From the NCBI RefSeq assembly GCF_016405965.1, contig NZ_JAEFCD010000002.1, positions 186,001 to 250,000 on the forward strand: DNA of 64,000 nt, given 5' to 3'. How positions within the stretch are numbered: the first letter of the stretch is position 1; each line of letters starts with the position of its first letter. The stretch comes from Alteromonas sp. IB21 (lineage in GTDB: Bacteria; Pseudomonadota; Gammaproteobacteria; Enterobacterales; Alteromonadaceae). The position numbers and the translations under genes are program-made. Shown here in pieces: positions 10,264 through 46,604 of this stretch. The notes under the pieces were generated by a model. That model was given only the letters and a program-made list of their open reading frames with translations, ran no database searches and was not told the origin of the DNA.

Positions 10264-10314
10264 CGAGTTATTAATTTGGGGGACCAGTGAAGCGATTTTT
10301 AAATACGGTTATTT

Positions 10315-10336
10315 GAAGCAGCCTTATGGCTGCTTC
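10315..10336. terminator. Hairpin between convergent kinase and DUF3833 genes
   Basis: Perfect 9-bp stem GAAGCAGCC / GGCTGCTTC with loop TTAT. The loop contains the stop codon of the minus-strand gene. There is no clear T tract on either side, so termination is plausible but not certain. Confidence 0.4.
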
Positions 10337-10881
10337 TGCATAAATATCGTCACCTCTGCCATAACTAGGCCGAACTTGCGAATGTATGAACGGTTCATCA
10401 TAGTGCTGTCGTCAAACGCCCAAAACCAATCATCGAACGTTACCGAATAGGTGGTATCGTCAACTGGTAAATCCATCTGATAGTGAAAGTTGAATGCATT
10501 GCCGTAGCTGGTGCCTTTAGCTGGCCCATCAATATCACCCGCGCTGCCAATAAAGGTGTTGTCGCTTTGCTTTACAATTTTCCAAGTGCGAGATTTAGGT
10601 CCGTCACCCACGCCATAATCAAACGTTTCATCCAACGTTAGCGTTTCGCCGTCAATAGCACCATCAATATTAACGACGAACCTCTGTACAACTTCTCCAG
10701 AGCGATTTTGGACAATTCCCCAAGCTTTCACATTGCCGTCAAAAAACTGCTCGATATTAAACGCAGGCGTCACTGACTGATAGTCTTCACCCTCAACAGA
10801 GACAGAGCAGCCTGATAGTCCAGCAACACTCAATGTAGCGAGGCTAAGGCCTAAAACGAGTTTACACGCACTTTTTATCAT
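10324..10881 (-). CDS. DUF3833 family lipoprotein
   Basis: A 185-residue protein with a lipoprotein signal peptide (LSGC, lipid-modified Cys25). The body matches the DUF3833 family as I know it, with the repeating pattern of FFDGNVKAWGIVQNRSGEVV, LDETFDYGDG-like and FDDWFWAFDDSTMMNRSYIRK segments suggesting a lipocalin-like beta barrel. An AGGA ribosome site precedes the ATG. It lies 61 bp downstream of the chalcone isomerase-like gene on the same strand and is probably co-transcribed. In related bacteria these two families often occur together; the role is unknown. Confidence 0.85.
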   Translation of the reverse strand: MIKSACKLVLGLSLATLSVAGLSGCSVSVEGEDYQSVTPAFNIEQFFDGNVKAWGIVQNRSGEVVQRFVVNIDGAIDGETLTLDETFDYGVGDGPKSRTWKIVKQSDNTFIGSAGDIDGPAKGTSYGNAFNFHYQMDLPVDDTTYSVTFDDWFWAFDDSTMMNRSYIRKFGLVMAEVTIFMQKQP

Positions 10882-10942
10882 CGAATAATGTCCTACGTAA
10901 TCAATTAAAATATATAGGGTTCAAGAAAGAGTTTGGGCCTTC

Positions 10943-11503
10943 TTACCCCTTGCCGAGCAACTTTTTTCTAAACTTTGGCTCTGAAGTTTTCTCACTCAAC
11001 CAGATATCAAAGAACCGCTGAGTAAAAGCGGAATCTTGGATTTCGTCAGACATTTCGCCATTCACATAGAAAATACTTTTGCCATCTTCAGTTGCGATGC
11101 CGGTAATAACGTCACCTTCACTGACATCAGGAAATATTTTTTCCATCAAAGCCAGCCATTTTTGAGCGTTATCTGAAGACACATCCCCTTGCTTCGTCAT
11201 TTCATCAATAGAACGTTCAGCAATTTTCTTCCCTTCAAGGTCTCTTTGATAAGTTAAACGCAAAGCAAATGGTGGCGCATTGTTGTATGTGCCCTCAGGG
11301 GCAAATAATTCGCCAGTGTAAACATCCCAAAAGTAATAGGAAAACATGCCTTTACCCACTAGTTTTGCTTTAGGTACGTGCTCTTCTATACGCTCAGCGC
11401 TCGCCTTTTGTGAATTTACGTCCTGTGCCAATGTCTTATTCGACATAAATATTGCTCCCATCACAAGGGATATGAAAAAAACGTGAGTTATTATAGTTGC
11501 CAT
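10943..11503 (-). CDS. Chalcone isomerase-like exported protein
   Basis: A 186-residue protein of the bacterial chalcone-isomerase-like family. It has an N-terminal hydrophobic signal (residues 5-22, cleavage likely after TLA) and the family core KLVGKGMFSYYFWDVYTGEL, LTYQRDLEGKKIAERSIDEM and a C-terminal FFDIWLSEKTSEPKFRKKLL. In bacteria the family is not linked to flavonoids, and its ligand may be a fatty acid or related lipid (family knowledge, unproven here). It is divergent from the PLP enzyme gene and upstream of the DUF3833 lipoprotein. Confidence 0.85.
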   Translation of the reverse strand: MATIITHVFFISLVMGAIFMSNKTLAQDVNSQKASAERIEEHVPKAKLVGKGMFSYYFWDVYTGELFAPEGTYNNAPPFALRLTYQRDLEGKKIAERSIDEMTKQGDVSSDNAQKWLALMEKIFPDVSEGDVITGIATEDGKSIFYVNGEMSDEIQDSAFTQRFFDIWLSEKTSEPKFRKKLLGKG

Positions 11504-11611
11504 ATGTATGCTCTATATCAGCGTAATAAAAATTACAGGTTTTTTATTGCGTTTATATCTGGTTATACTCTCGCCAATATGCATTTGATCAAATAAGACC
11601 AGGTTCTTTAC

Positions 11612-12610
11612 GTGCTACCGCTTGAAGCTTTCAAAACATCGCTTACTCTCCCCTCCGCCTTAGTGTCTATTTCTCCTGAATGGAAAGGCGCAGAGAACGT
11701 ATCGCTTTATGTGAAGAGAGACGACGCGATACACCCGATAATTTCAGGTAACAAGTGGCGAAAATTAAATCATTCGCTAACGCAACCTTTTCCTAATGCC
11801 ATAATAAGTTTCGGCGGTGGATTTTCTAACCATCTTCACGCTTTGGGCTTTGTTTGTTTTGAGCTCGGCATTCCTTTTACAGCGATTGTTCGTGGAAATT
11901 ATTCCGCTAATCCTTCGCCAATGATTGAAGATCTCATTCAATGGGAAACAACAATCGAATACGTCAATAGAAAAACTTACCAAAGACGTAATGAAAGCGC
12001 GTATTTAAACGAACTTCATAACAAATATCCTGACGCCCTTATTATTCCCGAAGGAGGAAGCCAAACTCGGGCACTTGCAGGTCTTCAAGACATGATGAAT
12101 GAAATCGACCTTGAATTTGATGTTATGGTTGCCCCAGTCGCTAGCGGTGCCACTTTAGCTGGGATTATCCGAGCTCTAGATAAACGTAACAAGTGCGCTT
12201 ATACAGAGCTTCAAGATATGCCCTCTTCTGCTTGTAATGCTATAGGTATTGGCGTGCTTAAAGGCGAAGGCTATTTAGAGGAATTGGTAGAACAATTCCT
12301 TCCTAACTCGCTCAAAAGGGAAAATAACCGCCATATTGAGTCGAACCAAAACACTGCAAATTTACCGACGCAAACCACTCACCCGTTTTGGCATATTAAA
12401 CACAATTATCACTGGGGCGGATATGCAAAAGCACCGTCTGAACTCGTTGCCTTTTGTGACGATTTTAATAAAACGATGCCCTTTGAAATTGAGCCAGTGT
12501 ATTCAGGAAAAGCCTTTTGGGCCGTGAAAGATATGCTGGCTAAAGGTAAGTTCAAAGACGGTACACGCATTATTATCTTGCACACTGGCGGTCTGCAGGG
12601 TGCAAGATAA
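11612..12610 (+). CDS. PLP-dependent ACC deaminase / D-cysteine desulfhydrase family protein
   Basis: A 332-residue fold-type II PLP enzyme. The cofactor lysine is expected at Lys48 in SGNKWRKL, in the equivalent place to GGNKTRKL of family members. The SFGGGFSNHLHALGF loop contacts the substrate carboxylate, and the C-terminal LHTGGLQGAR block is typical. The reaction is likely removal of ammonia, with or without sulfide, from a small D-amino acid or cyclopropane amino acid; the exact substrate cannot be told from sequence. The start is the GTG at 11612. It is divergent from the chalcone-like gene and convergent with the sterol desaturase gene. Confidence 0.85.
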   Translation: MLPLEAFKTSLTLPSALVSISPEWKGAENVSLYVKRDDAIHPIISGNKWRKLNHSLTQPFPNAIISFGGGFSNHLHALGFVCFELGIPFTAIVRGNYSANPSPMIEDLIQWETTIEYVNRKTYQRRNESAYLNELHNKYPDALIIPEGGSQTRALAGLQDMMNEIDLEFDVMVAPVASGATLAGIIRALDKRNKCAYTELQDMPSSACNAIGIGVLKGEGYLEELVEQFLPNSLKRENNRHIESNQNTANLPTQTTHPFWHIKHNYHWGGYAKAPSELVAFCDDFNKTMPFEIEPVYSGKAFWAVKDMLAKGKFKDGTRIIILHTGGLQGAR

Positions 12611-12629
12611 AATTTTTTGAACTATCTAG

Positions 12630-13442
12630 CTAATCAGCAACAGGATAGCCAAACAGTCTCTTTAGCTTTGCTCTAACTCCTTTTGCCTGCCGAAGCTGTT
12701 CACGCAACACACCTATTTGACTAAAGTTAGCGCTAAGGGGGTTGTCCTTGGGCATTTTTCCTACAATGCCGTACTTTATCGTTATTGCTTTATCTTCTTT
12801 AGCATAGGTGCCAAATAACCTATCCCAGATAATGAGCACACCACCGTAATTTTTATCGATGTAGGGCTTGTTTGTCGCGTGATGAATACGGTGATGAGTA
12901 GGCGTATTAAACACATATTCAACCCACCCCAAGTTTCCAACGGTTTGCGTATGAACAAAAAACTGATAGGCCAAGTTTATTGCAACAATTGCAAATACCA
13001 GGCTTGGTGAGAACCCCACTAAAATCATTGGTATCCAAAACAGCCACATACCAACAAACGGGTATAGAACGCTTTGTCTGAAAGCCGTGGTGAAATTCAT
13101 TTTCGTCGAGCTGTGGTGCACCACGTGCGCCATCCAAAACCAGTGTATGTTGTGTGAGGCCCGATGAAACCAATAATACAAAAAATCCTGAAGCATAAAG
13201 CCAGCAATGAGAGAAATAGCAGTAAGCTCAATCTTAAACAGCGAATACTGGTGAAGCCAAATGAATGCTGGCATGAGAAGAAGCAGCACTAATGCATCGG
13301 CTCCTTGGTGAAGCAAGGCTAAAAGAGCATTGTTCACGCTGTCTTTAACGTTATAAAACTGCCGAGCTTTTTTATATTCAATTAAAACACAAAGGAGAAA
13401 AACTGGGCTTAAGCCAAGTAATACAAGTTCAACAGGGATCAA
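12630..13442 (-). CDS. Sterol desaturase / fatty acid hydroxylase family protein
   Basis: A 270-residue membrane di-iron oxygenase. The eight-histidine pattern is visible: HRASH, then HVVHHS, and the late HHRIHHA, between four or five hydrophobic segments. The family hydroxylates or desaturates lipids and sterols or cleaves ether lipids; the substrate here is unknown. Its start overlaps the end of the SRPBCC gene by 14 bp, so the two are translationally coupled and probably act together. Confidence 0.88.
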   Translation of the reverse strand: MIPVELVLLGLSPVFLLCVLIEYKKARQFYNVKDSVNNALLALLHQGADALVLLLLMPAFIWLHQYSLFKIELTAISLIAGFMLQDFLYYWFHRASHNIHWFWMAHVVHHSSTKMNFTTAFRQSVLYPFVGMWLFWIPMILVGFSPSLVFAIVAINLAYQFFVHTQTVGNLGWVEYVFNTPTHHRIHHATNKPYIDKNYGGVLIIWDRLFGTYAKEDKAITIKYGIVGKMPKDNPLSANFSQIGVLREQLRQAKGVRAKLKRLFGYPVAD

Positions 13443-32134: not shown

Positions 32135-34726
32135 ATGAATATTGATTACCGTAAACCGCTTCCAAATGCGGGTATCGACTTCTTCGATACTCGTGAAGCG
32201 GTTGATGCCATAGAGCCAGGTGCATACGCCAAGCTGCCGTACACGTCACGTGTGTTGGCTGAAAACTTGATACGCAAATGCGACCCTGCCATGCTAAACG
32301 ATTCACTCAAACAGCTGATATACCGCAAGCGCGACCTCGATTTTCCGTGGTTCCCAGCACGTGTGGTATGCCACGATATTCTTGGTCAAACGGCCCTTGT
32401 AGACTTAGCGGGCCTTCGCGATGCCATTGCGGCGAAAGGCGGCGACCCTGCGAAAGTAAACCCAGTGGTGCCTACTCAGCTAATAGTGGACCACTCCCTC
32501 GCCGTAGAGCACGCGGGCTTTGAAAAAGACGCATTTGAAAAGAACCGTGCTATTGAAGACAGACGAAACGATGACCGCTTTCATTTCATTAACTGGACAA
32601 AAACCGCGTTTAAAAACGTAGATGTTATTCCGCCGGGTAACGGCATTATGCACCAGATTAACTTGGAGCGTATGTCGCCAGTTATTCAAAGCCGTGACGG
32701 CGTAGCCTTCCCAGATACCCTCGTGGGCACAGACAGCCATACCCCGCATGTTGATGCACTTGGTGTAATTGCGGTAGGCGTGGGCGGCCTTGAAGCGGAA
32801 AGCGTTATGCTGGGCCGTGCGTCTTATATGCGTTTGCCTGATATTGTAGGGGTCGAGCTTACCGGTAAGCCACAGCCAGGTATTACGGCTACCGACATCG
32901 TATTAGCGTTAACTGAATTCCTGCGTAAAGAGCGTGTAGTATCTGCATATCTTGAATTCTACGGTGAAGGTGCATCGCACTTAACCCTTGGCGATCGGGC
33001 GACCATCTCGAACATGACACCCGAATACGGCGCCACAGCGGCGATGTTCTATATCGATCAGCAAACTATTGATTACTTGCGCTTAACTGGGCGTGAAGAA
33101 AAGCAAATTGCGCTTGTCGAGAAATACGCTAAACACACTGGGCTTTGGGCTGATGACTTAGAAACTGCCGAGTACGAACGAGTTCTCACGTTTGATTTGT
33201 CTGCCGTAGGCAGAAACATGGCCGGGCCGTCTAACCCGCATGCACGCTTACCCACTAGCGACCTAGAAAGTCGCGGTATCGCAGCTAAGTGGACTGAAGA
33301 AGAAGGTAAAATGCCAGATGGCGCGGTGATTATCGCAGCTATCACCAGCTGTACTAATACCTCTAACCCGCGAAACGTGATTGCAGCAGGCTTACTTGCC
33401 AGAAATGCAAACGCGCGCGGTTTAACCCGCAAGCCATGGGTGAAAAGTTCACTGGCGCCTGGTTCTAAAGCCGTTAAGTTATACCTTGAAGAGGCCAACT
33501 TAATGAGCGAATTGGAAGACTTAGGTTTTGGCGTTGTGGCATTTGCATGTACCACTTGTAACGGTATGAGTGGCGCGCTAGACCCTAAAATTCAGCAAGA
33601 AATTATCGACCGCGATTTATACGCCACAGCGGTACTTTCGGGCAATCGTAACTTCGATGGGCGTATTCATCCCTATGCGAAGCAAGCCTTCTTGGCATCA
33701 CCACCCTTGGTCGTTGCATACGCCATAGCCGGTACCATTCGCTTTGATATCGAAAAGGACGTGTTAGGCACTGATAAAGATGGCAACCCAGTAACGCTTA
33801 AAGATATCTGGCCAAGCGATGAAGAGATTGACGCTATTGTTGCTAAATCTGTCAAGCCTGAGCATTTCAGAAAAGTGTACGAGCCTATGTTCGACTTGAG
33901 TGTGGATTACGGTAAAGACATTAATCCGCTCTACGACTGGCGTGAAATGAGCACCTACATTCGCCGCCCGCCTTATTGGGAAGGTGCAATGGATGCCGAG
34001 CGCACCATGAAGGGTATGCGTCCGTTAGCCATTTTAGGTGATAACATCACCACCGATCACCTATCGCCTTCTAACGCCATTATGGCAAGCAGTGCCGCGG
34101 GGGAATACTTAGCGAAAATGGGGTTACCTGAGGAAGACTTCAACTCCTACGCCACCCACCGTGGAGATCACTTAACCGCCCTGCGCGCTACCCTTGCGAA
34201 CCCCAAAGTGTTCAATGAAATGGTGCTGGAAAACGGCGAAGTCAAACAAGGTTCACTAGCCCGCGTAGAGCCAGAAGGCAAAGTCGTGCGCATGTGGGAA
34301 GCCATTGAAACCTATATGAACCGCAAACAGCCGCTGATCATTGTAGCAGGCGCTGACTACGGTCAGGGTTCATCGCGAGATTGGGCAGCGAAAGGCGTAC
34401 GCCTTGCGGGCGTTGAAGTCATTGTAGCAGAGGGTTTCGAGCGTATTCACCGTACTAACCTTATTGGTATGGGCGTGTTGCCGCTAGAGTTTAAGCCTGG
34501 CACAACCCGTAAAACACTAGAGCTCGACGGTACAGAAACTTACGATGTAAGCGGAGAACCTTCGCCGGGCGCAACACTGACGCTGGTAGTAAACCGTAAA
34601 AACGGCGAGCAACTAGAAGTACCCGTAACCTGTCGTTTAGACACTGCAGAAGAAGTCTCTATTTACAGTGCAGGCGGTGTACTACAACGCTTCGCAAAGG
34701 ACTTCTTGGAAGCTGAAGCTAGCTGA
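32135..34726 (+). CDS. acnD: Fe/S-dependent 2-methylcitrate dehydratase AcnD
   Basis: Aconitase-like enzyme that dehydrates 2-methylcitrate to an isomer of 2-methylaconitate, which PrpF then isomerises. 863 residues. The [4Fe-4S] ligands are in ITSCTNTSNPRN and AFACTTCNGMSG; the swivel domain has GADYGQGSSRDWAAKGVRL and the final GMGVLPLEFKPG. Length and operon position separate it from AcnA. prpF follows ten bases after its stop, with AGGA between. Confidence 0.95.
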   Translation: MNIDYRKPLPNAGIDFFDTREAVDAIEPGAYAKLPYTSRVLAENLIRKCDPAMLNDSLKQLIYRKRDLDFPWFPARVVCHDILGQTALVDLAGLRDAIAAKGGDPAKVNPVVPTQLIVDHSLAVEHAGFEKDAFEKNRAIEDRRNDDRFHFINWTKTAFKNVDVIPPGNGIMHQINLERMSPVIQSRDGVAFPDTLVGTDSHTPHVDALGVIAVGVGGLEAESVMLGRASYMRLPDIVGVELTGKPQPGITATDIVLALTEFLRKERVVSAYLEFYGEGASHLTLGDRATISNMTPEYGATAAMFYIDQQTIDYLRLTGREEKQIALVEKYAKHTGLWADDLETAEYERVLTFDLSAVGRNMAGPSNPHARLPTSDLESRGIAAKWTEEEGKMPDGAVIIAAITSCTNTSNPRNVIAAGLLARNANARGLTRKPWVKSSLAPGSKAVKLYLEEANLMSELEDLGFGVVAFACTTCNGMSGALDPKIQQEIIDRDLYATAVLSGNRNFDGRIHPYAKQAFLASPPLVVAYAIAGTIRFDIEKDVLGTDKDGNPVTLKDIWPSDEEIDAIVAKSVKPEHFRKVYEPMFDLSVDYGKDINPLYDWREMSTYIRRPPYWEGAMDAERTMKGMRPLAILGDNITTDHLSPSNAIMASSAAGEYLAKMGLPEEDFNSYATHRGDHLTALRATLANPKVFNEMVLENGEVKQGSLARVEPEGKVVRMWEAIETYMNRKQPLIIVAGADYGQGSSRDWAAKGVRLAGVEVIVAEGFERIHRTNLIGMGVLPLEFKPGTTRKTLELDGTETYDVSGEPSPGATLTLVVNRKNGEQLEVPVTCRLDTAEEVSIYSAGGVLQRFAKDFLEAEAS

Positions 34727-34736
34727 GGAAAAAAAC

Positions 34737-35918
34737 ATGACAATGTATGCGCCACAACTTCGCGTACCGGCTACCTACATGCGTGGCGGTACCAGTAAAG
34801 GTGTGTTTTTTAATTTAACTGACTTGCCAGAAGCTGCGCAAAAGCCGGGGCCTGCGCGCGATGCCCTGCTTCTGCGTGTTATCGGAAGCCCTGATCCATA
34901 TGGAAAACAAACCGATGGTATGGGCGGTGCGACATCAAGCACCAGCAAAACCGTTATATTAAGCAAAAGCGAGCGTAAAGGTTACGATGTCGACTATCTA
35001 TTCGGTCAAGTAGCCATAGACAAGCCATTTGTAGACTGGAGCGGTAACTGCGGAAACCTGACCGCTGCAGTGGGCGCCTTTGCCATTAGCAACGGCCTCG
35101 TCGATGCCAGCAAAATTCCACAAAATGGCATTGCCACGGTGAACATTTGGCAGGCCAATATCAATAAAGCGATTATTGCTAAGGTGCCAATGACCAATGG
35201 CGAAGTACAGGAGACAGGCGATTTTGAGCTTGATGGTGTGACCTTTCCTGCTGCAGAGGTGGAAGTAGCATTTGTTGATCCGGCTGATGGAGAAGGGGCC
35301 ATTTTTCCTACCGGACGCTTGGTCGACACACTTGAAGTGCCGGGTGTAGGCTCACTTCAAGCGACCATGATTAACGCGGGGATCCCCACTATCTTCATCA
35401 ACGCTGTAGATATCGGATATACAGGCACGGAACTGCAGGATGATATCAACAGTGATGCTGATGCACTTGCAAAGTTTGAAGCAATTCGCGCATACGGCGC
35501 TGTTCAAATGGGCCTAATTAAAGACGTGGGTGAAGCCGCAAACAGGCAGCACACGCCCAAGGTGGCGTTTGTTGCTCCGCCACGAGGATATAAGGCGTCT
35601 AGCGGTAAAGATGTTTTGGGCTCTGATATTGATGTACTCGTTCGCGCCCTGTCTATGGGTAAACTGCACCATGCGATGATGGGCACGGCAGCCGTTGCTA
35701 TAGCTGCAGCAGCCGCTATTCCCGGCACGTTGGTTAATCTAGCGGCAGGTGGGGAGAACAGAGAGTCGGTTACCTTTGGGCACCCTTCGGGTACGTTACG
35801 CGTTGGTGCGAAAGCGTCATTTGAAGGCGACAAGTGGCATATCAATCAAGCTGTAATGAGCCGAAGTGCACGAGTACTTATGGAAGGAACTGTGCGTGTT
35901 CCTGTTGAACAGAGTTAA
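34737..35918 (+). CDS. prpF: 2-Methylaconitate cis-trans isomerase
   Basis: Cofactor-free isomerase of the diaminopimelate-epimerase-like fold that works with AcnD. 393 residues starting VPATYMRGGTSKGVFF, with DGMGGATSSTSKTVIL and DWSGNCGNLTAAVGAFAI motifs and the GHPSGTLRVGA block near the end. The ATG at 34737 follows GAGGA; an in-frame upstream ATG inside acnD has no ribosome site. Last gene of the operon, followed by a clear terminator. Confidence 0.95.
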   Translation: MTMYAPQLRVPATYMRGGTSKGVFFNLTDLPEAAQKPGPARDALLLRVIGSPDPYGKQTDGMGGATSSTSKTVILSKSERKGYDVDYLFGQVAIDKPFVDWSGNCGNLTAAVGAFAISNGLVDASKIPQNGIATVNIWQANINKAIIAKVPMTNGEVQETGDFELDGVTFPAAEVEVAFVDPADGEGAIFPTGRLVDTLEVPGVGSLQATMINAGIPTIFINAVDIGYTGTELQDDINSDADALAKFEAIRAYGAVQMGLIKDVGEAANRQHTPKVAFVAPPRGYKASSGKDVLGSDIDVLVRALSMGKLHHAMMGTAAVAIAAAAAIPGTLVNLAAGGENRESVTFGHPSGTLRVGAKASFEGDKWHINQAVMSRSARVLMEGTVRVPVEQS

Positions 35919-37302: not shown

Positions 37303-38466
37303 TTACAAAAACCAGTCTCTTATAGGCAGTGTTGCAGCGCCAACTGCAACTGGACATTCTGTAACGCCTGCGCAAACTATTTCAGGCATAGGACGTTTGG
37401 CCCCTCGCCTAAACTGTGCGTATACATCAATTCTAGGTATTACCTTTTGAGCGAGCTTAGTGGGTATGTGGCCGCCTATTATTATTGCTTGGCTATCAAG
37501 CAAGGCAGAGCTTGCTGTAGCGACTAAATCAAATGAATCTTGAACCTTGTAAATCCATTCATCAACGCCAGGCCACTCAGGATCAAAAACTTCATTCAAT
37601 CGATACATAGACGGTACATCGACGCCATTTTTCAAGAGTATGCGCTCTAAAAGCTTAAGGTTGGGGTGGCTATACAATTTAGCAGGCAACATGTCGCCCA
37701 ATTCCCCCGCATTTCCATGGGTACCTCGAATCATGTCACCGTTGTTAATTAAGCCCCCACCAAAAGCACTAGAAACAAAGAAATAAACGAAGTTTTTATA
37801 CTTCCGGCCAACCCCCGCAATGCCCTCACCAGCGGCAGCACCGGTTCCATCGTTTACCACCCAAGTGGGTAAATTAAATGCGTCGGCAACAGTCTCAGCT
37901 ATGTTAATGTCAGCCCACTCTTCAATAGCATGATGGGTGTTCATTTTTCCATCAGTAGAACTAAAAAAACCAGAAATTCCAACGCCAATACCAAGTATGC
38001 GTTCGTTGTCTATCTGGTGTTTTGCAGACATTGCGTCAAATTCAGCTACCGCTTTTGAAAGTACAGATGCAATCCCCATGTCGTCTAATTCAACGTGTTT
38101 AGTTGCAACAACTTCACCTTTGAAATTCATCAAAGCAATAGAAATAGCATCAAGCAATATCGACAAACCATAGCTGTAAGCATACTCTGGGTTTGGCTCT
38201 AATCCTGAGGAAGCTTTACCTGAATCACCGACTCCTCTGATAAGGCCATCTTCAATAAGCGTAATGACCAAACGAGAAACAGTTTGCTGGGGAATTTTAG
38301 TGGCAACAGATATTGCTCTTTGCGTGATGCCGTGAGTCCAAAACACCTCTTTGACGATGGCTTTGGGATTGTCTTGCAGCAACTTTTCACCTTTACCAAG
38401 CTCAAAATTACCGCGCAGCAATTGATTATTTCTCGCCGATGTCAGCATAGATCCCACTTTCAACAT
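37303..38466 (-). CDS. ROK family transcriptional regulator
   Basis: A 387-residue NagC/Mlc-type protein: winged helix at about 20-85 (AISVATKIPQQTVSRLVITL) followed by a ROK sugar-kinase-like fold with VVNDGTGAAAGEGIAGVG and GTHGNAGELGDM. The usual zinc motif CXCGxxGCxE after the GHAGELG region is missing; no cysteines occur there. It is the last gene of the minus-strand run glycerate kinase / symporter / TonB receptor (48 bp from the kinase), so it probably represses that locus and senses a sugar released from the substrate. Confidence 0.88.
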   Translation of the reverse strand: MLKVGSMLTSARNNQLLRGNFELGKGEKLLQDNPKAIVKEVFWTHGITQRAISVATKIPQQTVSRLVITLIEDGLIRGVGDSGKASSGLEPNPEYAYSYGLSILLDAISIALMNFKGEVVATKHVELDDMGIASVLSKAVAEFDAMSAKHQIDNERILGIGVGISGFFSSTDGKMNTHHAIEEWADINIAETVADAFNLPTWVVNDGTGAAAGEGIAGVGRKYKNFVYFFVSSAFGGGLINNGDMIRGTHGNAGELGDMLPAKLYSHPNLKLLERILLKNGVDVPSMYRLNEVFDPEWPGVDEWIYKVQDSFDLVATASSALLDSQAIIIGGHIPTKLAQKVIPRIDVYAQFRRGAKRPMPEIVCAGVTECPVAVGAATLPIRDWFL

Positions 38467-38514
38467 ATTCGATTTAAGCTAGGCACATTATACGTAACTC
38501 ACGCCCAGTTCCCA

Positions 38515-39747
38515 CTACGTTGAAACAGAAATCACTCGAAAGTCATTAACATTGGTTCGCGTTGGACCTATCGCTATATGTGCATCAAGCACATCGAAAA
38601 AGCTAAAACTGTTGTGCTCTTTTAATAACGCGTCTACCTCCAGCCCCTTTTTCTCCGCCTCTGCCAGTGTATGCTCGTCGATGTAACCGCCCGCGACATC
38701 TTTGCTGCCATCAACGCCATCTGTATCTGCCGCTAAGGCACTAATTCCTGGTTCTCCGCCCAGTTCACGTGCAAGTGCCATAAGGTATTCTTGGTTTGGT
38801 CCACCCTCGCCTTTTGAATCTCCCAATGTCACGGTAAGCTCACCGCCAGAAAGCAATAAAATAGGTTTCCCTTTTTTCTTATACTCTCGTGCAATTTGCG
38901 CGTGACGTTTAGCTACCGTTTGTGCTTCCCCTTTTTCTGTGTAGCTAATGATTTCAGTATCCCAACCCGCAGCTTTTGCTTTTCCAACTGCTGCATCAAT
39001 GGCACTTTGCGCATTAGCCACCAAGGTATAACCGCCAGAAACCTTCGGAAGCGGTAATGCATGGTTTAAGTAATCGCGAATACGGGACTCGTTGCAAAAG
39101 TCATATTTGTCTAGGATGGCAATCGCGTCTTCAGGTTTTGTAGTGTCTTGCACGGTTAAGCCTGAAGCAATAAAAGCTGGGTCATCTCCTACCACGTCTG
39201 AAATAACTAGGCTTGTATTTTTCCCTTTCGAAGCGGCGGCTAGTCTCCCTCCTTTAATAACTGAAACATGCTTTCTTACCGTATTCATTTCTTCAATGCT
39301 TGCACCACTTCGCAATAAGAACTTGTGCAGCGCAAGTTTTTCATCGAGCGAAATACCGTGAGGTGGCGCACAAGCAAGCGACGATCCTCCACCGGAAATA
39401 AGAAAGATAACGTCCTCTGAAGACTTCACCTTAGATGCCAAAGACAATAACGCTTTAGCCCCTTCTACACTATTTTCATCAGGCACTGGATGTGCAGCAA
39501 GGCGAACCTCAATGTTGCCCGTGGGTTCGGTATTCTCATAGCCATAACGAGTAACCACCAGCCCGTAAGCGTTATCGCCAAAGTATTTATAAGCCTCGAC
39601 CGCCATGTCCGCAGCCGCTTTCCCTGCTCCCAAAATGCATACTCGCTTGTTTCGAGCAAACGATGAAAAGTGCTCTGGTAAACAATATCTAGGCTTACTA
39701 ACTCTTACCGCCTCTTCGTATAAGGATAAAAGAAATGATCTATTCAT
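38515..39747 (-). CDS. Glycerate 2-kinase (MOFRL family)
   Basis: Phosphorylates D-glycerate to 2-phosphoglycerate, feeding glycolysis. 410 residues with an N-terminal glycerate-kinase domain (VCILGAGKAAADMAVEAYKY, LISGGGSSLACAPP, MNTVRKHVSVIKGGRLAAAS) and the C-terminal MOFRL domain (LLLSGGELTVTLGDSKGEGG, ALAADTDGVDGS). The presence of this enzyme next to a GH63-type hydrolase is the key clue that the locus handles a glycosylglycerate. AAAGG precedes the ATG. A hairpin lies between the symporter stop and this gene. Confidence 0.9.
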   Translation of the reverse strand: MNRSFLLSLYEEAVRVSKPRYCLPEHFSSFARNKRVCILGAGKAAADMAVEAYKYFGDNAYGLVVTRYGYENTEPTGNIEVRLAAHPVPDENSVEGAKALLSLASKVKSSEDVIFLISGGGSSLACAPPHGISLDEKLALHKFLLRSGASIEEMNTVRKHVSVIKGGRLAAASKGKNTSLVISDVVGDDPAFIASGLTVQDTTKPEDAIAILDKYDFCNESRIRDYLNHALPLPKVSGGYTLVANAQSAIDAAVGKAKAAGWDTEIISYTEKGEAQTVAKRHAQIAREYKKKGKPILLLSGGELTVTLGDSKGEGGPNQEYLMALARELGGEPGISALAADTDGVDGSKDVAGGYIDEHTLAEAEKKGLEVDALLKEHNSFSFFDVLDAHIAIGPTRTNVNDFRVISVST

Positions 39748-39762
39748 GAAAAACCTTTGGAA

Positions 39763-39780
39763 AGGGCCCCTCGGGACCCT
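39763..39780 (-). promoter_or_regulatory. Intra-operon hairpin before the glycerate kinase gene
   Basis: On the minus strand AGGGTCC / GGGCCCT form a 7-bp stem (one G-U pair) with a 4-base loop. It begins at the symporter stop codon and ends ahead of the kinase ribosome site. There is no long T tract; it may stabilise or segment the mRNA rather than end it. Confidence 0.4.
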
Positions 39781-41350
39781 ATGTAAATAGTGAGGGAAGT
39801 AGTAGACACACAGTCAGCATAAGTGCAAAAAAGCCCAACAATATAGTAATGTCGCTTTTGGTAAGAATGGAGTGAAACCTTAGCTGTTTAACATCATCCA
39901 CACATGTTGACGAAGGCCATATAAATCTTGCGAGGATAGAGACTGCACAAGTAACGACAAAGCCGATAACGTTCCACCAAAACCAGAATATATCTGGTAC
40001 GAAAAGCCAAATTATAATGTTGGTACCTACACCAGCAATAAGCCCCAAATTAACGTGTCGTCCGCTCAGCGTTTTACTTGCTACGGCAAGTAAAAAGAGC
40101 GCGAGTATAGGCCCATAAAATACAGAGCCAACTTTATTGATAGCTTCAATTATTGTTGGTGCAATATTTCCCGCAAAAAGAGAAAGAACAAGCGTAACGC
40201 CCCCCCATATCAAACCAGTTATTTTAGCTACCCGAAGATAACTTTTGTGCTCAAGTTCTGTATCGGTTATGCGGCAATAGTCTTCAACGGTCACCGCCGA
40301 TAGTGAATTTATGGCAGAGCTTAACGACGACATGGCGGCAGATAAAATAGCCACAATCAAAAGGCCAATTAATCCATGCGGAAGATAATTTAGGATAAAA
40401 GTCGGCATGAGCCAGTCTGGGTTATCAGCGGGAATTTTATTGAAAAAGTCAGTGTTGGTTAGGGCAAGTGTGCCGACAATTAACCCAGAAAAACAATAAA
40501 GTAATGTTATGGGAAAACGAATGATACCGTTTGCCACAATCATTTTTCTGAGGTCATTCTCGTTTCTTGCCGATAGCGCACGCTGAGCCTGTGTTTGATC
40601 ACAGCCATAGTAAGATGCGTAGAGGACGATTCCTCCAAACAGCATGGGGAAGAAACCGAAGCCGTCCCCACTGAAGCCTAGCGAAGAGAAGTCTATTGCT
40701 ATTAATCGCTCTTTTGGTGCCTGCGCTACGAGCACGTCAAAGCCACCCAGTGCTTGAAGACCAATGACGATGCACGCAATGGTGCCCAGTACAATTATAA
40801 TCATTTGTATGGCGTCAGCATAAACTACCGCTTTCATCCCGCCCTGCAACGAATAAAGCACAGTAATAATGCCAGTAAGCACTACTGCCTGCCACGCTTC
40901 AATGCCCATTGTGCCTTGCAAAATAATTGACACCGCATAAATCATAATGCCGGTAGCAAATGCACGGCTAAATTGGAAAACAACACTAATTAAAACGCGG
41001 GTTAAACGCCCAAATCTTTGCTCTAGATAGTCGTATATGCTTACCACACCCGACTTATATAAAGACGGAAGGATAGTACCTAGCAGCAGAATCATAGCAA
41101 TAGGAATACCCAGCTCGTAAGACAGCCAGATCATACCGCCGCCATCCCGCAATCCAACAAAAGCTGGGGCAGAAATAAAGCTAATTGCAGAGAGTTGCGT
41201 GGCCATTACGGAAAGGGTTAGTGGCTTCCACCCTAACGTTCTGCCACCGAGAAAATAATCACCTTTGTCTTCTTGCTGTCTTAAGGCGAACCCCATATAC
41301 AGTAAAGCGCCTAGGTAGCCTATCACTACAATGTAATCTAAAAAATTCAT
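39779..41350 (-). CDS. Sodium:solute symporter (SSS family)
   Basis: A 523-residue inner-membrane carrier with about 14 helices of the SglT/SSS group: LGGRTLGWKPLTLSVMATQL-type helix 1, QGGMKAVVYADAIQMIIIVL, and the sodium-site region of helix 8 (LIVAILSAAMSSLSSAINSL). It likely brings the intact glycosylglycerate, or the sugar freed from it, across the inner membrane with Na+. It lies between the TonB receptor gene (upstream) and the glycerate kinase gene (downstream) on the same strand. Confidence 0.92.
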   Translation of the reverse strand: MNFLDYIVVIGYLGALLYMGFALRQQEDKGDYFLGGRTLGWKPLTLSVMATQLSAISFISAPAFVGLRDGGGMIWLSYELGIPIAMILLLGTILPSLYKSGVVSIYDYLEQRFGRLTRVLISVVFQFSRAFATGIMIYAVSIILQGTMGIEAWQAVVLTGIITVLYSLQGGMKAVVYADAIQMIIIVLGTIACIVIGLQALGGFDVLVAQAPKERLIAIDFSSLGFSGDGFGFFPMLFGGIVLYASYYGCDQTQAQRALSARNENDLRKMIVANGIIRFPITLLYCFSGLIVGTLALTNTDFFNKIPADNPDWLMPTFILNYLPHGLIGLLIVAILSAAMSSLSSAINSLSAVTVEDYCRITDTELEHKSYLRVAKITGLIWGGVTLVLSLFAGNIAPTIIEAINKVGSVFYGPILALFLLAVASKTLSGRHVNLGLIAGVGTNIIIWLFVPDIFWFWWNVIGFVVTCAVSILARFIWPSSTCVDDVKQLRFHSILTKSDITILLGFFALMLTVCLLLPSLFT

Positions 41351-41436
41351 ATGCTGTTCTTATTTTTCAAGTCGCGAATTAAAAAGCTGATAGCCCCCGT
41401 TAAGAGCCATCAGCGAAGGGGAAGTGTCAACGTCGA

Positions 41437-43887
41437 CTAAAAATCATAACGCAAACGCAGCGACACGCGGCGCGGTAATATGGGGCGGCCTACAAAGTAA
41501 GATTCACCCGCTGTTTGGCTATTACCTAGACGAGGAGACCCTTCAGTAATACCATCTGAGTCGAATAGATTCCATACAGCTATACTTGCACGAAGTCGCT
41601 CACCCTGCCCGAGTTCCCATGTATAGCCCGTGTCTAAACGGAATACATGGAAGTCGTCTAACTCAACAGAATTAGCGTCATTAGTGAAGTTTTTACCGTG
41701 GTAGTTATGGTAAAAAGAGATATCCCAGTCGTCTAACGTATAGCGCAGCGCTGAGTTAAACATCACCTTTGGCTTTCTTCTTAATTCGTTACCTATTACA
41801 GAAGGGTCAGAATCGTATTCGGTAAATTCATGGTCTGTGTAAGTAAAGTTAGCATCGAAAATCAGGTCATCGGTAATGTTATAGCTACCAACAACTTCAA
41901 CACCATAGGCTTCTGTTGATTGGAAAACCGGAACTTCTATGGCCACACCGTTTTCATCGTTCACGAAGTCAACAGAGCGTCTGTCTTCAAGATCAGTTTT
42001 GAACAACGCTACCGTTCCCACAAAATCATCTAAGAAGAACTTGGCACCTACCTCTGCTTGTTTCACTATTTCACTTTCGTAACGCCCTGGTTGACCGTTA
42101 GGGTTAAACGCAACGCCGCGAAGCTCTGGGAAGAAGAACCCTCTTGAGTAGTTAGCATAAACATTGAAGTTATCGGCCAGCTTGTAGAGCGCTGCTATCG
42201 AATAAGCAAGTTCTGAGTTATCAACGTTACCGTGAGTTAAAGCACCGCTACCCGTTACATTCACCTGTAAGTCTTGATAAAGCATAGGATCGTCGTTAAC
42301 GACAACCGTTTGACTGCCTTCTCGTGTAATCGTGCCGTCTATTTCTTCCCAGCGTAGACCAACATCAATGATCCAATCATCACTTTGCATTTGGTCAGCA
42401 ATATAAAAGGCATTTCTTCGCGCAGAAATCGTCGTATCAGAAAAACTAATGCCAGGGCCTGTTACGCCATTTTGACTGACTATTAGGTTATTATCGTCAG
42501 CATCTGTAATCGATAAATCGACCAAACGTGCTTGATTGTTAAACTCACCAAGATATCGAGTAATTACGTTATTATCTTCTGCCTCAGCGCTTGAGAAAAA
42601 GGTACCAACTGTAATGCTATGGGAGAAATCACCAATATCGAGATATTTAACGATATTCAACTCAGACGAGAAATCTGTCGCCGGTCTGTCCCTATCTAGA
42701 ATGCGGTTTGCAAATAATAGGTCATCTTCGGGTAGCGCAATGTCTGTTCCCGCGTAAGTAAAAGCTGGTGTACCTAACTCATCAAGCCCTCGGTTTGCTA
42801 AATATTCGCTTTGTGTCTCTGGAACATTGATAATGCCATCGCCATCTAGGAACAAATTGAACTGATGGTCATAGCTGGCATACTTTGCTCGAGCAAGTAC
42901 GCTATAGTCATTACCCAAGTCTTTTGAAAATTCCATAGACACTGAACCGCCTCTTGTCGCAACGCCCTCCTCAATCGGCGTGCGATAGCGTCCATCTGCA
43001 GTGTCATAAGACAAACCAGATGCGTAGAAGGTTTGGGTTGATTCTACTTCTCGCCCGTCGTTGCCAGCAACACGCTCTCGGCTTTGAGCGTCAAGCGGCA
43101 GAGGGAGAAAAAATTGCACTTCATCGTTAATGGCTTGACCATAGATAGTGAAGTAACCGCTCCCGTCATCAAACTCTTTGTGAATGTTACCGCGAACTTG
43201 GTAACCTTCGGTGGGCAATCCAGTGTCAATAGGGCCTTCATCATAACGATAAAAACCAGACATAGCGTAATACATACCCTTTTCATTCAAAGGGCCGCTT
43301 GTCGCGAAATCTAAACGCTTGCGATTGTTGTCAGATAACTCCAGCTGAACTGTACTTTCTGAGAGTTCAGTTCCTTTCTTAGAAAGGTAGTTAATAACCC
43401 CAGCGACAGAGCCTTGGCCAAACAGGTTAGATACACCACCGCGCACAAACTCAACGCGCTCAATACCTAAATCGTTTCTAAAGTAAACATCGTATGCAGA
43501 TGAATTAAGACCAAACGCACTCAAAGTGGGTGAGCCGTCATAAAGTAAGGGAGTAAATTGGAACTGACCTGATGAAGGTAAGCCTCGCACTTGCAAGTTA
43601 GTGGCGACTTCACCACCACCGCCTTCTACCTTTATACCCGGTACATAGCGAAGAACATCGGCTTGGCTACTCATCGAGAGTTTCGCTACTTCTTGCGCGT
43701 CCATAGATGTAGTCGACTGCGGCGTTTCCGCCACCAAACGAGCACGACTGGTGCCCGTAACAACGATTTGTTCATAATCTTTTTTAGCTTTGGCGCCTTG
43801 ATCAGCATCCGTTTTTTCTGCGTCCTGAGCGATTGCATTGCCAGCTAATAGCGACGAAATCGTCGTCGCAAGAAGTAGTTTATTCAC
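41437..43887 (-). CDS. TonB-dependent receptor of the glycosylglycerate locus
   Basis: An 816-residue outer-membrane receptor. Signal peptide to residue 20 (NAIAQ), TonB box YEQIVVTGTSRARLV, plug (LRYVPGIKVEGGGGEVATNL, IERVEFVRGGVSNLFGQGSV) and barrel ending in SLRLRYDF. GGAG lies ahead of the ATG. It is the first gene of the minus-strand operon and is divergent from the hydrolase, so outer-membrane uptake of the same substrate is inferred. A receptor for such a small solute is unusual, which could also mean that a larger glycoside is taken up. Confidence 0.9.
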   Translation of the reverse strand: MNKLLLATTISSLLAGNAIAQDAEKTDADQGAKAKKDYEQIVVTGTSRARLVAETPQSTTSMDAQEVAKLSMSSQADVLRYVPGIKVEGGGGEVATNLQVRGLPSSGQFQFTPLLYDGSPTLSAFGLNSSAYDVYFRNDLGIERVEFVRGGVSNLFGQGSVAGVINYLSKKGTELSESTVQLELSDNNRKRLDFATSGPLNEKGMYYAMSGFYRYDEGPIDTGLPTEGYQVRGNIHKEFDDGSGYFTIYGQAINDEVQFFLPLPLDAQSRERVAGNDGREVESTQTFYASGLSYDTADGRYRTPIEEGVATRGGSVSMEFSKDLGNDYSVLARAKYASYDHQFNLFLDGDGIINVPETQSEYLANRGLDELGTPAFTYAGTDIALPEDDLLFANRILDRDRPATDFSSELNIVKYLDIGDFSHSITVGTFFSSAEAEDNNVITRYLGEFNNQARLVDLSITDADDNNLIVSQNGVTGPGISFSDTTISARRNAFYIADQMQSDDWIIDVGLRWEEIDGTITREGSQTVVVNDDPMLYQDLQVNVTGSGALTHGNVDNSELAYSIAALYKLADNFNVYANYSRGFFFPELRGVAFNPNGQPGRYESEIVKQAEVGAKFFLDDFVGTVALFKTDLEDRRSVDFVNDENGVAIEVPVFQSTEAYGVEVVGSYNITDDLIFDANFTYTDHEFTEYDSDPSVIGNELRRKPKVMFNSALRYTLDDWDISFYHNYHGKNFTNDANSVELDDFHVFRLDTGYTWELGQGERLRASIAVWNLFDSDGITEGSPRLGNSQTAGESYFVGRPILPRRVSLRLRYDF

Positions 43888-43987
43888 TGTGTATCTCCAA
43901 CCGTTTTTAATTATGTTGAGTGTTTTAGTAGGGCTTCACACACTGCCGAACACAACACCTCATGATTAACTTCCCATTTACAATAAA

Positions 43988-44041
43988 ACACAAATTTATC
44001 ACTTTCAACCCAAAATGGGTTTTATTTTTAAATCTTTGTGT
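43988..44041. promoter_or_regulatory. Nested dyad in the divergent promoter region
   Basis: The outer inverted repeat ACACAAA (43988-43994) / TTTGTGT (44035-44041) encloses an inner one, AACCC (44007-44011) / GGGTT (44017-44021). Both have nearly the same centre (about 44014). It sits between the TonB receptor and hydrolase starts, a good place for the ROK regulator to control both directions. Confidence 0.45.
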
Positions 44042-44081
44042 AATAATTGCTAAATCTAAAACTCATATTGGGTAAAAAGTA

Positions 44082-45383
44082 ATGATGAATATAGAAAACC
44101 GTGATGCGCATCTCATTGAAGAAGCGAAAGCAACGCTAATTAAAAACGACCTTGGTGGCTATACGGTGCCTACGCACGGACTGTATCCATTTCAGTGGAA
44201 CTGGGATTCAGCTATTGTGGCTTTAGGCTGGCTTCCTTTTGACGAGCCTAGAGCTTGGGAAGAAACTACGTCATTGCTCAGCGCGCAATGGAAGTCAGGA
44301 ATGGTGCCCCATGTTGTTTTCCACAAGCATTCAGATACTTACTTCCCGGGTCCTGATATTTGGGGCGTACAAAACTCACCGGATAGTACGTCTATCACAC
44401 AACCTCCCGTGCTGGCTTCCGTTATCAAGGTTTTGTTTGAGGAGACAAAAGATCGTGCACTTGCTGAGTCTCAGATAAACACTATCGTACCTCAGCTTAT
44501 CGATTACCACTTATGGTGGTATAAGCAGAGAGATCCTGAAAATACAGGGTTGGTTGTAAGTTATCATCCGTGGGAATCGGGTATGGATAACAGCCCTGCG
44601 TGGGATGCAGCACTAGAAGCGGTTCCATGTGTAGACTGGGAATATACTCGCCGTGACACAAGTCACATCGATGCCTCCGAGCGTCCTCACAAAAAGGAAT
44701 ATGACCGCTTTTTGTATCTTGTCGACTTTTTCCGAAAGATGAATTTTGACGATACGTTGATTTATCAAGATTGCCCATATCGTGTAAACGATGTGAGCAT
44801 TATTTCAATTCTGCACCGCGCCACGAAAGACTTGCTGGCAATATGCAAAAAAGTTGGCGTAAGTAACGAACAAACTGCTTACCTTGAAAAACGCTTGAAC
44901 CTGACGGAAGATGCTATCGATAAGCTATGGTGTGCCGATACCAACATGTTTCATAGCTTCGACACAAGAAGCAACACAATGTGTAAAGCACGCACGTCCG
45001 CTGGGTTATTACCATTTTTCGCAGGCCTTGTCAGTGAGCAGCAAACGCAACCACTTATTTCAGTGTTAGATAAATGGCTTGATCACAGCAAATATGCGAT
45101 ATCTTCTACTCACCCTGACGATCCCAATTATGAACCTCAGCGCTACTGGCGCGGCCCTATCTGGATCCATATAAATTGGATGATAGCCATCGGCTTAGAG
45201 GACTATGGCTTCTCACAACAAGCTCAGCGCATTACAGAGGGAAGTCGCGCGTGTATTTATACCAGCGGTTTTAACGAGTCATTCCATGCAGAGACCGGCG
45301 CGCGTAGTGGAGGAGCTGATTTTTCTTGGACCGCAGCCATGGCGCTATATTGGCTGTTACCTGACACCGCGAAAAAAGGTTAA
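44082..45383 (+). CDS. GH63-type glycosylglycerate hydrolase (mannosyl-/glucosylglycerate)
   Basis: A 433-residue (alpha/alpha)6-barrel protein like the bacterial mannosylglycerate and glucosylglycerate hydrolases of GH63, in length and in order of motifs: NDLGGYTVPTHGLYPFQWNW near the start, ESGMDNSPAWD with the likely general acid Asp169, RYWRGPIWIHINWMI, and HAETGARSGGADFSW with the likely base Glu404. The spacing of the two acids matches that known for the family. Reaction: release of mannose or glucose from glycerate. It lacks a signal peptide, so it acts in the cytosol after uptake. The next gene starts 12 bases on. Confidence 0.8.
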   Translation: MMNIENRDAHLIEEAKATLIKNDLGGYTVPTHGLYPFQWNWDSAIVALGWLPFDEPRAWEETTSLLSAQWKSGMVPHVVFHKHSDTYFPGPDIWGVQNSPDSTSITQPPVLASVIKVLFEETKDRALAESQINTIVPQLIDYHLWWYKQRDPENTGLVVSYHPWESGMDNSPAWDAALEAVPCVDWEYTRRDTSHIDASERPHKKEYDRFLYLVDFFRKMNFDDTLIYQDCPYRVNDVSIISILHRATKDLLAICKKVGVSNEQTAYLEKRLNLTEDAIDKLWCADTNMFHSFDTRSNTMCKARTSAGLLPFFAGLVSEQQTQPLISVLDKWLDHSKYAISSTHPDDPNYEPQRYWRGPIWIHINWMIAIGLEDYGFSQQAQRITEGSRACIYTSGFNESFHAETGARSGGADFSWTAAMALYWLLPDTAKKG

Positions 45384-45395
45384 GGAGTGCTTACT

Positions 45396-46604
45396 ATGCT
45401 TTCTCAACCAGATTTTTCATCTAAAGAATTCTTAGATTCGCATATAAAAAGCATACTGGCTTTCTACGAGCCTAATGTAGATGCTCTATCGGGCGGCTTC
45501 TATCAGAACTTTATGGATGATGGCAGTGTGTATGACACGAAGACACGCCACTTAGTGAGCTCTACACGTTTTGTTTTTAACTATGCGAGAGCTTACATCG
45601 CTTTTGGTGATATACGTTACAAGGAGCGTGTCGAGTCTGGTATTGAATTTTTACGTGAGTATCATTTGCAGAAAGATACTAAGGGCTATGCATGGACACT
45701 TTCTGTGGATGGAACCGAAAGCACAATTACTGATGCAACTAACCATTGCTACGGTTTAGCTTTTGTAATTTTAGCCTACAGCTGGGCACTTCGAGCTGGA
45801 GTGAAAGAGGCCGAGCAGTATATTCACGAAACGTTTTCGCTTATGGAAACGCACTTTTGGGATAGCGAATTCGGATTGTATAAAGACGAATTTAATGCTG
45901 ACTTCTCAAAATGCAGTGACTACCGTGGTCAAAATGCCAATATGCATAGTTGCGAAGCCCTTATCGCGGCTTACGAAGCAACACGCTACGCTCCTTTTCT
46001 CGAGCGCGCTATAGCATTAGCTAGGAATATCACTATTCGTCAAGCAAACAAAGCTGATGGTCGAATTTGGGAACACTATACGAACACATGGGACGTAGAT
46101 TGGGATTACAACAAAGATGATCCTAAAAACCTTTTTCGTCCTTGGGGATTTCAACCCGGTCATCATACTGAGTGGGCAAAGCTATTGTTACAAATTCACC
46201 AATATGAACCTCAAGATTGGTTAGTTGAACGAGCTTGTTCGTTGTTTGATTCCGTTATTGAAATAAGCTGGGACGATGCAAACGGAGGCTTATATTACGG
46301 CTTTGCTCCAGACAATAGTATTTGTGACGATGAAAAGTACTTTTGGGTACAAGCTGAATCATTTGCTTGTGCCGCCCGATTAGCGCTAGAAACGGGTAAC
46401 GAAAAGTATTGGCAGTGGTACAACCGGATTTGGGATTACTCTTGGAGGCACATGGTTGATCACATATACGGCGCTTGGTTCAGGATTTTATCGGCTAACA
46501 ATGAAAAGCTAGAAGAGACTAAAAGCCCAGTAGGAAAAACAGATTACCATACTATGGGCGCCTGCTATGACGTGCTAGATGCACTAAAGTTTTACCAAAA
46601 ATAA
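45396..46604 (+). CDS. AGE family epimerase/isomerase, probable D-mannose isomerase
   Basis: A 402-residue (alpha/alpha)6-barrel of the N-acylglucosamine 2-epimerase superfamily, branch with YihS and bacterial mannose isomerases. Active-site histidine blocks are visible in ATNHCYGLAF, ANMHSCEALIAAYEAT, QPGHHTEWAKLL and TDYHTMGACYDVL. The expected reaction is D-mannose to D-fructose without phosphate or metal. The ATG at 45396 was chosen because AAGGAG stands 9 bases ahead; a GTG nine bases earlier overlaps that site. Coupled to the hydrolase gene, which points to mannose as the sugar released. Confidence 0.82.
   Translation: MLSQPDFSSKEFLDSHIKSILAFYEPNVDALSGGFYQNFMDDGSVYDTKTRHLVSSTRFVFNYARAYIAFGDIRYKERVESGIEFLREYHLQKDTKGYAWTLSVDGTESTITDATNHCYGLAFVILAYSWALRAGVKEAEQYIHETFSLMETHFWDSEFGLYKDEFNADFSKCSDYRGQNANMHSCEALIAAYEATRYAPFLERAIALARNITIRQANKADGRIWEHYTNTWDVDWDYNKDDPKNLFRPWGFQPGHHTEWAKLLLQIHQYEPQDWLVERACSLFDSVIEISWDDANGGLYYGFAPDNSICDDEKYFWVQAESFACAARLALETGNEKYWQWYNRIWDYSWRHMVDHIYGAWFRILSANNEKLEETKSPVGKTDYHTMGACYDVLDALKFYQK

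Follow-up and report, generated by a model that had tools for sequence, protein, structure and literature searches.

2-O-alpha-mannosyl-D-glycerate (mannosylglycerate or digeneaside, hereafter MG) is an osmolyte of some red seaweeds. The MngA/MngB pathway of Escherichia coli, which acts on it, is presumably the combination of a phosphotransferase importer and a GH38 mannosidase. Degradation of digeneaside has already been proposed for marine Flavobacteriia and is not new here: genes for it in Zobellia are cited in PMC8072126, where homologues from Maribacter are described as well, and PMC6298971 names digeneaside among the possible substrates of loci. Marine Group II archaea have a glycoside hydrolase that may degrade MG (PMC6336850), and PMC5501506 lists, for Microbulbifer, a GH38 protein under the annotation mannosylglycerate hydrolase. 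In this study we analysed a window of 64,000 nucleotides from Alteromonas sp. IB21 (NZ_JAEFCD010000002.1, positions 186,001 to 250,000; contig C22 within a 4.54 Mb genome), in which six adjoining genes probably constitute a regulated cassette for the catabolism of alpha-glycosyl-D-glycerates, MG being the main substrate. Compared with MngA/MngB, which has the same predicted substrate, this cassette has a TonB-dependent receptor, a Na+ symporter and a GH63 enzyme instead, and neither a phosphotransferase importer nor a GH38 mannosidase is among its six genes by Pfam. The digeneaside genes proposed in Zobellia galactanivorans and in Maribacter dokdonensis, likewise marine bacteria, have the proposed substrate in common with it, and in contrast to those Flavobacteriia the receptor here is without a SusD partner. 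No report tying MG hydrolysis to a mannose isomerase was found in the literature searched, which mostly left subscription journals outside.

All six open reading frames (ORFs) were verified at 37303-46604, and each protein exceeds the Pfam gathering score for its family, so that the gene families and the two divergent operons given in an earlier, sequence-only reading of this DNA were all recovered. The minus strand carries, in this order, a ROK-family transcriptional regulator (37303-38466; Pfam ROK 81.9 bits, cut-off 22.9), a MOFRL-type glycerate kinase, probably a glycerate 2-kinase (38515-39747; Pfam DUF4147 238 and MOFRL 112 bits; NCBIfam glycerate 2-kinase 207 bits, under the cut-off of 550), a Na+:solute symporter of the SSS family (39779-41350; Pfam SSF; TIGR00813 210 bits, above the cut-off of 184), and a TonB-dependent receptor (41437-43887; Pfam plug and barrel), with gaps of 48, 31 and 86 bp. 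On the plus strand, a GH63 mannosylglycerate/glucosylglycerate hydrolase (44082-45383) is followed after 3 bp by an AGE-superfamily enzyme (45387-46604), and 194 bp of upstream DNA are common to both divergent groups. The cassette most likely imports MG and splits it into two fuels of central metabolism. MG would pass the outer membrane through the receptor and the inner membrane through the symporter, after which, in the cytoplasm, the GH63 enzyme would release mannose and D-glycerate, the AGE enzyme would convert mannose to fructose, and the MOFRL kinase would convert glycerate to phosphoglycerate. Fructose would then be phosphorylated by a fructokinase from outside the cassette, for which a fructokinase-like gene elsewhere in the genome is a candidate. 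Since no sugar kinase is found among the locus genes, and the fructose-kinase step is thus not encoded there, the earlier description of the locus as complete was too strong and has been dropped.

The hydrolase matches Pfam PF22422 (MGH1-like) with 324 bits against a cut-off of 27, and is a GH63 hydrolase of the MG and glucosylglycerate (GG) type, with its family settled and its activity predicted. Its nearest relative in the PDB is the mannosylglycerate hydrolase of Thermus thermophilus (TtMgH; 2z07/4wva) at 396 bits, followed by mycobacterial chains at 209-217 bits; identity is 43.5% to 2z07 and 33.3% to 5ohc, which we take to be the glucosylglycerate hydrolase of Mycolicibacterium hassiacum (MhGgH), an assignment that fits the published residue numbering. 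We compared 21 active-site positions taken from that publication (PMC6608630) in an alignment of 85 sequences. Nineteen of them are identical in the window hydrolase, MhGgH and TtMgH, including, by alignment, the catalytic Asp169 and Glu399 (Asp182 and Glu419 in MhGgH numbering). At positions 433 and 434 of that numbering, the window hydrolase differs from MhGgH; the former is variable, and the latter is Phe in the window, in TtMgH and in 84/85 sequences altogether, Gln occurring only in 5ohc. The mycobacterial chain 6g3n, outside the 85-sequence set, also has Phe at 434 in the PDB-search alignment. Active-site residues were rejected as a discriminator between MG and GG, position 434 being Phe whether or not a locus contains AGE.

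In a GH63 tree, the grouping of the window hydrolase with Alteromonadaceae has a support of 100, and that with other gammaproteobacterial loci one of 95-97. This placement and the kept catalytic and contact residues set it among the glycosylglycerate enzymes rather than outside them, as the sequence-only reading had supposed. The tree contains only two enzymes of known activity and cannot assign MG or GG. TtMgH is of the same family, with the compared catalytic and contact residues in common; unlike it, the present enzyme belongs to a marine gammaproteobacterium, and its gene lies in one cassette with importers for both membranes, an AGE isomerase and a glycerate kinase. MhGgH is likewise of the same family and reaction type and has a nearly identical active site.

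The AGE protein (Pfam GlcNAc_2-epim) is 59.6% identical to 3gt5, which presumably comes from Xylella, and 55.9% identical over 390 aligned residues to 5x32. The motifs PGHH at 257 and DYHT at 386 align with the same motifs of both chains, and we take the histidines of PGH and DYHT to be catalytic. Chain 5x32, of the same superfamily, is described as the D-mannose isomerase of Marinomonas mediterranea in PMC7762179, and we predict the same activity here from sequence. The bit score against 5x32 is 506, compared with 150-155 for YihS types, 38-60 for cellobiose epimerases and 32-81 for other PDB chains named N-acetylglucosamine (GlcNAc) or N-acylglucosamine epimerase. The sequence-only reading had left room for an AGE protein confined to GlcNAc; by its distance from those chains, and by relatives that stand beside GH92 genes and fructokinases, ours does not appear to be of that type.

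Those relatives come from a scan of 394 genomes of the order (E <= 1e-80), with 27 matches in 26 genomes; 5 matches are linked to GH63 and 22 are not, and 16 of the 22 were examined. A PfkB fructokinase-like gene adjoins AGE in 12 of these 16 and GH92-type mannosidase genes are present in 6, with either or both in 15 and neither in L127 (Pfam confirmed GH92 in all four proteins submitted to it and PfkB in the single one submitted, the other calls being made by clustering). The GH92-bearing loci (L124-L126, L129-L131) have the same AGE subfamily, with GH92 replacing GH63 and a fructokinase-like gene in L124, L125 and L131; no match to GH63 or the MOFRL kinase was found in their examined flanks. 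Enolase-superfamily genes were also seen near AGE and GH92-type genes in L125 (10070-11290, Pfam run) and L130 (8552-9760). Among GH63 loci, PfkB lies between hydrolase and AGE in L009, L011, L014 and L089.

The order was also scanned with the hydrolase (1e-20), which gave matches in 6/394 genomes, one of which (G374, 29% identical, no AGE listed) was left out as not close. All five genomes with a close GH63 protein have AGE, adjacent in G000, G204 and G224 and about 1 kb off, with one gene in between, in G041 and G393, compared with AGE anywhere in 21 of the 389 other genomes (Fisher p = 9e-7, a value inflated by relatedness). Within the genus, taken as Alteromonas in the broad sense with 59 genomes (including A. 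hispanica, L007, and Aestuariibacter sp. A3R04, L012), the hydrolase is present in 12, of which 11 have an adjoining AGE of at least 70% identity; none of the 47 without hydrolase has an AGE at that level, and four have one of 52-55%. In a tree of 30 AGE proteins, including all 16 rows not linked to GH63, the GH63-linked rows do not form one group: the starred branches force at least three changes, and parsimony gives five. The window protein groups with Alteromonas, Paraglaciecola and Kangiellaceae (100/99), that of L070 with Marinomonas, Xylella and L124 (95/91), and those of Pseudocolwellia and G041 lie among AGEs of other loci, several of them GH92-linked (100/100), with two paired Woeseiaceae (97/91) on the same side. 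Loci with and without AGE are also intermixed in the GH63 tree (5 changes), where L009 and L011 have sister hydrolases (99), while their AGEs do not pair. Such changes may be gains or losses; the reading we prefer is that AGE repeatedly joined GH63 loci, which would be the strongest indication of mannose release by these hydrolases.

The conserved neighbourhood of GH63, MOFRL kinase and AGE anticipated by the sequence-only reading was recovered. Ten genus loci (the window, L087, L088, L186-L192) have all six genes with the divergent arrangement preserved, and so do A. hispanica L007 and L008, L009 and L089; L011 has matches to all six window proteins, with ROK on the far side. The TonB receptor is 82-98% identical across 11 other genus loci, and the receptor gene of A. 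hispanica (L007 4071-6521) is split into two ORFs of 612 and 201 aa. Some matches (G041, G447, G457, G416) were reported with one stop at the end or inside; as the reading frames are uninterrupted over their whole length in the examined stretches (e.g. 422 and 393 aa in L089, 431 aa in L187 and L192, 402 aa in L189), these stops were taken as terminal.

The six genes are a movable unit, present or absent together at one common site. This site is flanked by genes for a response regulator-GGDEF protein and a bPH2 protein, found in 31 and 57 of the 59 genus genomes, respectively. GGDEF reaches >=60% identity in 28 genomes; of these, seven have the flank matches 9.39-9.48 kb apart, with the hydrolase inside, six have them 25-129 bp apart and nine 1.1-1.8 kb apart, and in the remaining six the flank genes are separated or fall on different contigs. 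All six genes were verified in the six other same-site genomes and in G446 (L186-L192). G446 is without GGDEF and has the bPH2 side in common, as does L007, and the cassette genes stand at other sites in G204, G224 and A3R04. GC content gave no clear signal of transfer, at 0.44-0.45 in the cassette, mostly 0.45-0.46 in the right flank and 0.48-0.51 in the left flank before 36000. Two of eight cassette-less congeners with inserts of about 1.7 kb were examined, and both contain a lone Na+ symporter gene at the cassette site (L182 1396-3015, L184 1590-3167), 61-63% identical to that of the cassette, which may be a remnant or an older resident.

Two operator-like palindromes form a conserved block in the divergent promoter, AACCCAAAATGGGTT at 44007-44021 and AACTCATATTGGGTA at 44060-44074. 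The pair is exactly 53 bp apart in 12/12 genus loci and 52 bp apart in L089, which belongs to another family, and all motif pairs 45-60 bp apart in the 2.35 Mb examined (duplicates included) fall at this promoter. Palindrome 1 occurs exactly nowhere else in the genome; when one mismatch is allowed, there are one forward and two reverse matches, against 3 and 2 for a reversed control pattern. Single palindromes are not enriched, so it is their conservation and their pairing that speak for an operator. In L008, L009 and L011 no pair was seen, and each has one related site. A separate promoter scan gave 6 matches versus 17.1 in shuffles and was given no weight. The ROK protein has a weak N-terminal match to a MarR_2-type helix-turn-helix (Pfam, 24.3 bits against a cut-off of 27) and, in a scan of its sequence, no CxCGxxGCxE motif, which we take to be the zinc motif of ROK kinases. 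It would repress both divergent operons through the two palindromes, whose distance corresponds to about five helical turns, until an inducer is present; we infer that two ROK dimers sit on one face of the DNA or form a loop.

A separate locus on contig C55 of the same genome (L094 7964-12638) encodes a GG phosphorylase (GGaP) with the motifs TETN and PYEIN, a GpgS-like synthase (378 bits, under the cut-off of 700), a phosphatase and a P-loop kinase-like protein, and is predicted to serve GG synthesis and phosphorolysis. The family matched by the phosphatase is named mannosyl-3-phosphoglycerate phosphatase (423 bits, cut-off 362), which makes a mannosyl product possible by that gene; synthase and phosphorylase speak for GG. 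GG phosphorylase (GH13_18) loci likewise end in glycerate; they differ in proceeding by phosphorolysis to glucose 1-phosphate, and no GH13_18 phosphorylase with TETN and loop-A Glu motifs is among the cassette genes. GGaP is found in 102 of the 394 order genomes, among them all seven that belong to the genus. Eleven order genomes list GGaP together with AGE, and the genes are unlinked in every one, lying on different contigs in five and at least 790 kb from each other in six. This separation, the AGE linkage in order and genus and the AGE tree together back the earlier argument that the isomerase points to mannose.

It is the context, rather than the hydrolase itself, that favours MG over GG as the substrate, and several observations weigh against that preference. 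All shared positions compared are kept in both MhGgH and TtMgH, so that the enzyme alone cannot separate the two substrates, and the hydrolase scores 337 bits in the NCBIfam family for glucosylglycerate hydrolase (under the equivalog cut-off of 550). The AGE protein stays at 222 bits in the NCBIfam D-mannose isomerase family, under its equivalog cut-off of 600, and the depositors of its top PDB chains, 3gt5 and 5x32, named them GlcNAc 2-epimerases. The association of hydrolase and AGE in the genus (Fisher p = 4e-11) is inflated by shared ancestry. When the best 80 of at least 586 hydrolase relatives in public genomes were kept as loci, AGE was present in only seven (L007-L011, L014, L070). AGE is missing from the whole genome of Aestuariibacter sp. 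A3R04 (L012; E <= 1e-60), where the other five genes are present with a hydrolase 87% identical to ours, and likewise genome-wide from L013, L015 and L016; these four loci carry receptor and symporter. Finally, AGE also occurs outside MG contexts. Of the three Woeseiaceae loci (L010, L013, L014) that have a GG phosphorylase beside GH63, L010 and L014 contain AGE as well, and in Marinomonas pollencensis (L179, 130-11497) an AGE gene beside a ROK gene has a GGaP-like gene at a distance of about 8.4 kb. The sequence-only reading is well supported overall, with MG the probable rather than proven preference, and is qualified by L012 and by the ability of GH63 enzymes of this type to act on both MG and GG.

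Several of these points would fit dual scavenging of MG and GG with neither dominant, in which AGE serves the mannose branch only. Characterised mannosylglycerate hydrolases act on both, those of Thermus and Selaginella with similar efficiency (PMC6608630), and L010 and L014 unite GH63, AGE and GG phosphorylase; the GH13_18 proteins of L010, L013 and L014 have TETN and PYELN, motifs given for glucosylglycerate phosphorylase, and these three are possibly joint MG/GG loci. Free cleavage of GG would, however, waste a solute that this cell is predicted to make, unless the repressor keeps the hydrolase off, and we consider dual scavenging somewhat unlikely. Still less probable is that the locus mainly scavenges external GG, with GH63 releasing glucose and glycerate and AGE balancing hexoses or taking a side substrate. 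MhGgH, for which a role in mobilising GG of the cell itself has been proposed, is almost tenfold more efficient on GG than on MG (PMC6608630), the loci without AGE and those with a GG phosphorylase beside GH63 (3/80) would agree with such a role, and GG is an osmolyte of marine picocyanobacteria and one of the two major solutes of Prochlorococcus NATL2A (PMC11631117). Yet 7/7 genus members in the order sample already own a GG phosphorylase, and AGE, with its mannose-isomerase relatives and fructokinases, appears to have been switched into GH63 loci repeatedly. Transporters, hydrolase and isomerase alone would not name the aglycone, which might be another hydroxy acid carrying a small alpha-mannoside or alpha-glucoside, but a MOFRL glycerate kinase in the cassette, the kept glycerate-contact residues among those compared and the inactivity of MhGgH on glucosylglycerol and glucosylglycolate (PMC6608630) make this very improbable. 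That unrelated carbohydrate genes are neighbours by chance is scarcely credible, as the six genes come and go together at one site, their order is kept in other families and the shared palindromes are conserved.

With MG as the probable main substrate, a more specific proposal can be put forward tentatively: an organism that makes and recycles its own GG would carry a separate, moving cassette for eating MG, with hydrolase and repressor tuned to keep both solutes apart, and the mannose branch (isomerase with or without fructokinase) would have joined GH63 loci several times independently. If true, gammaproteobacteria that consume a particular, defined metabolite of seaweeds could be recognised by the cassette as a genetic marker; it would also exemplify a pathway assembled more than once, and would allow one to test how cells discriminate between a solute used as food and a nearly identical one of their own.

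Most of the 80 GH63 loci appear to be of a different, ABC-transporter type, as an ABC binding-protein-like gene is present in 45 of them (LacI and binding protein were Pfam-confirmed in one representative each, other ABC parts being assigned by reading). A MOFRL kinase was found in 13 and a fructokinase-like gene in three (L009, L011, L014); these neighbour counts are lower bounds, some of the loci being on short contigs, and they were the same in a six-frame search as in the ORF-based counts, in which the hydrolase itself was missed in 15/80. L070 is such an ABC-type locus, with a hydrolase 38% and an AGE 60% identical to those of the window. The Marinomonas pollencensis AGE homologue, with a different ROK gene beside it, is on another contig than the GH63 locus of that genome. 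In L012, an MgtE gene follows in place of AGE (10001-13000). By reading, L015 (16799-17698) and L016 (11144-12010), GH63 loci without MOFRL kinase, contain a gene resembling 2-hydroxyacid or tartronate semialdehyde reductases. To the left of the cassette, aconitase-like and PrpF-like ORFs in the window (32135-35918) resemble, again by reading, a 2-methylcitrate operon.

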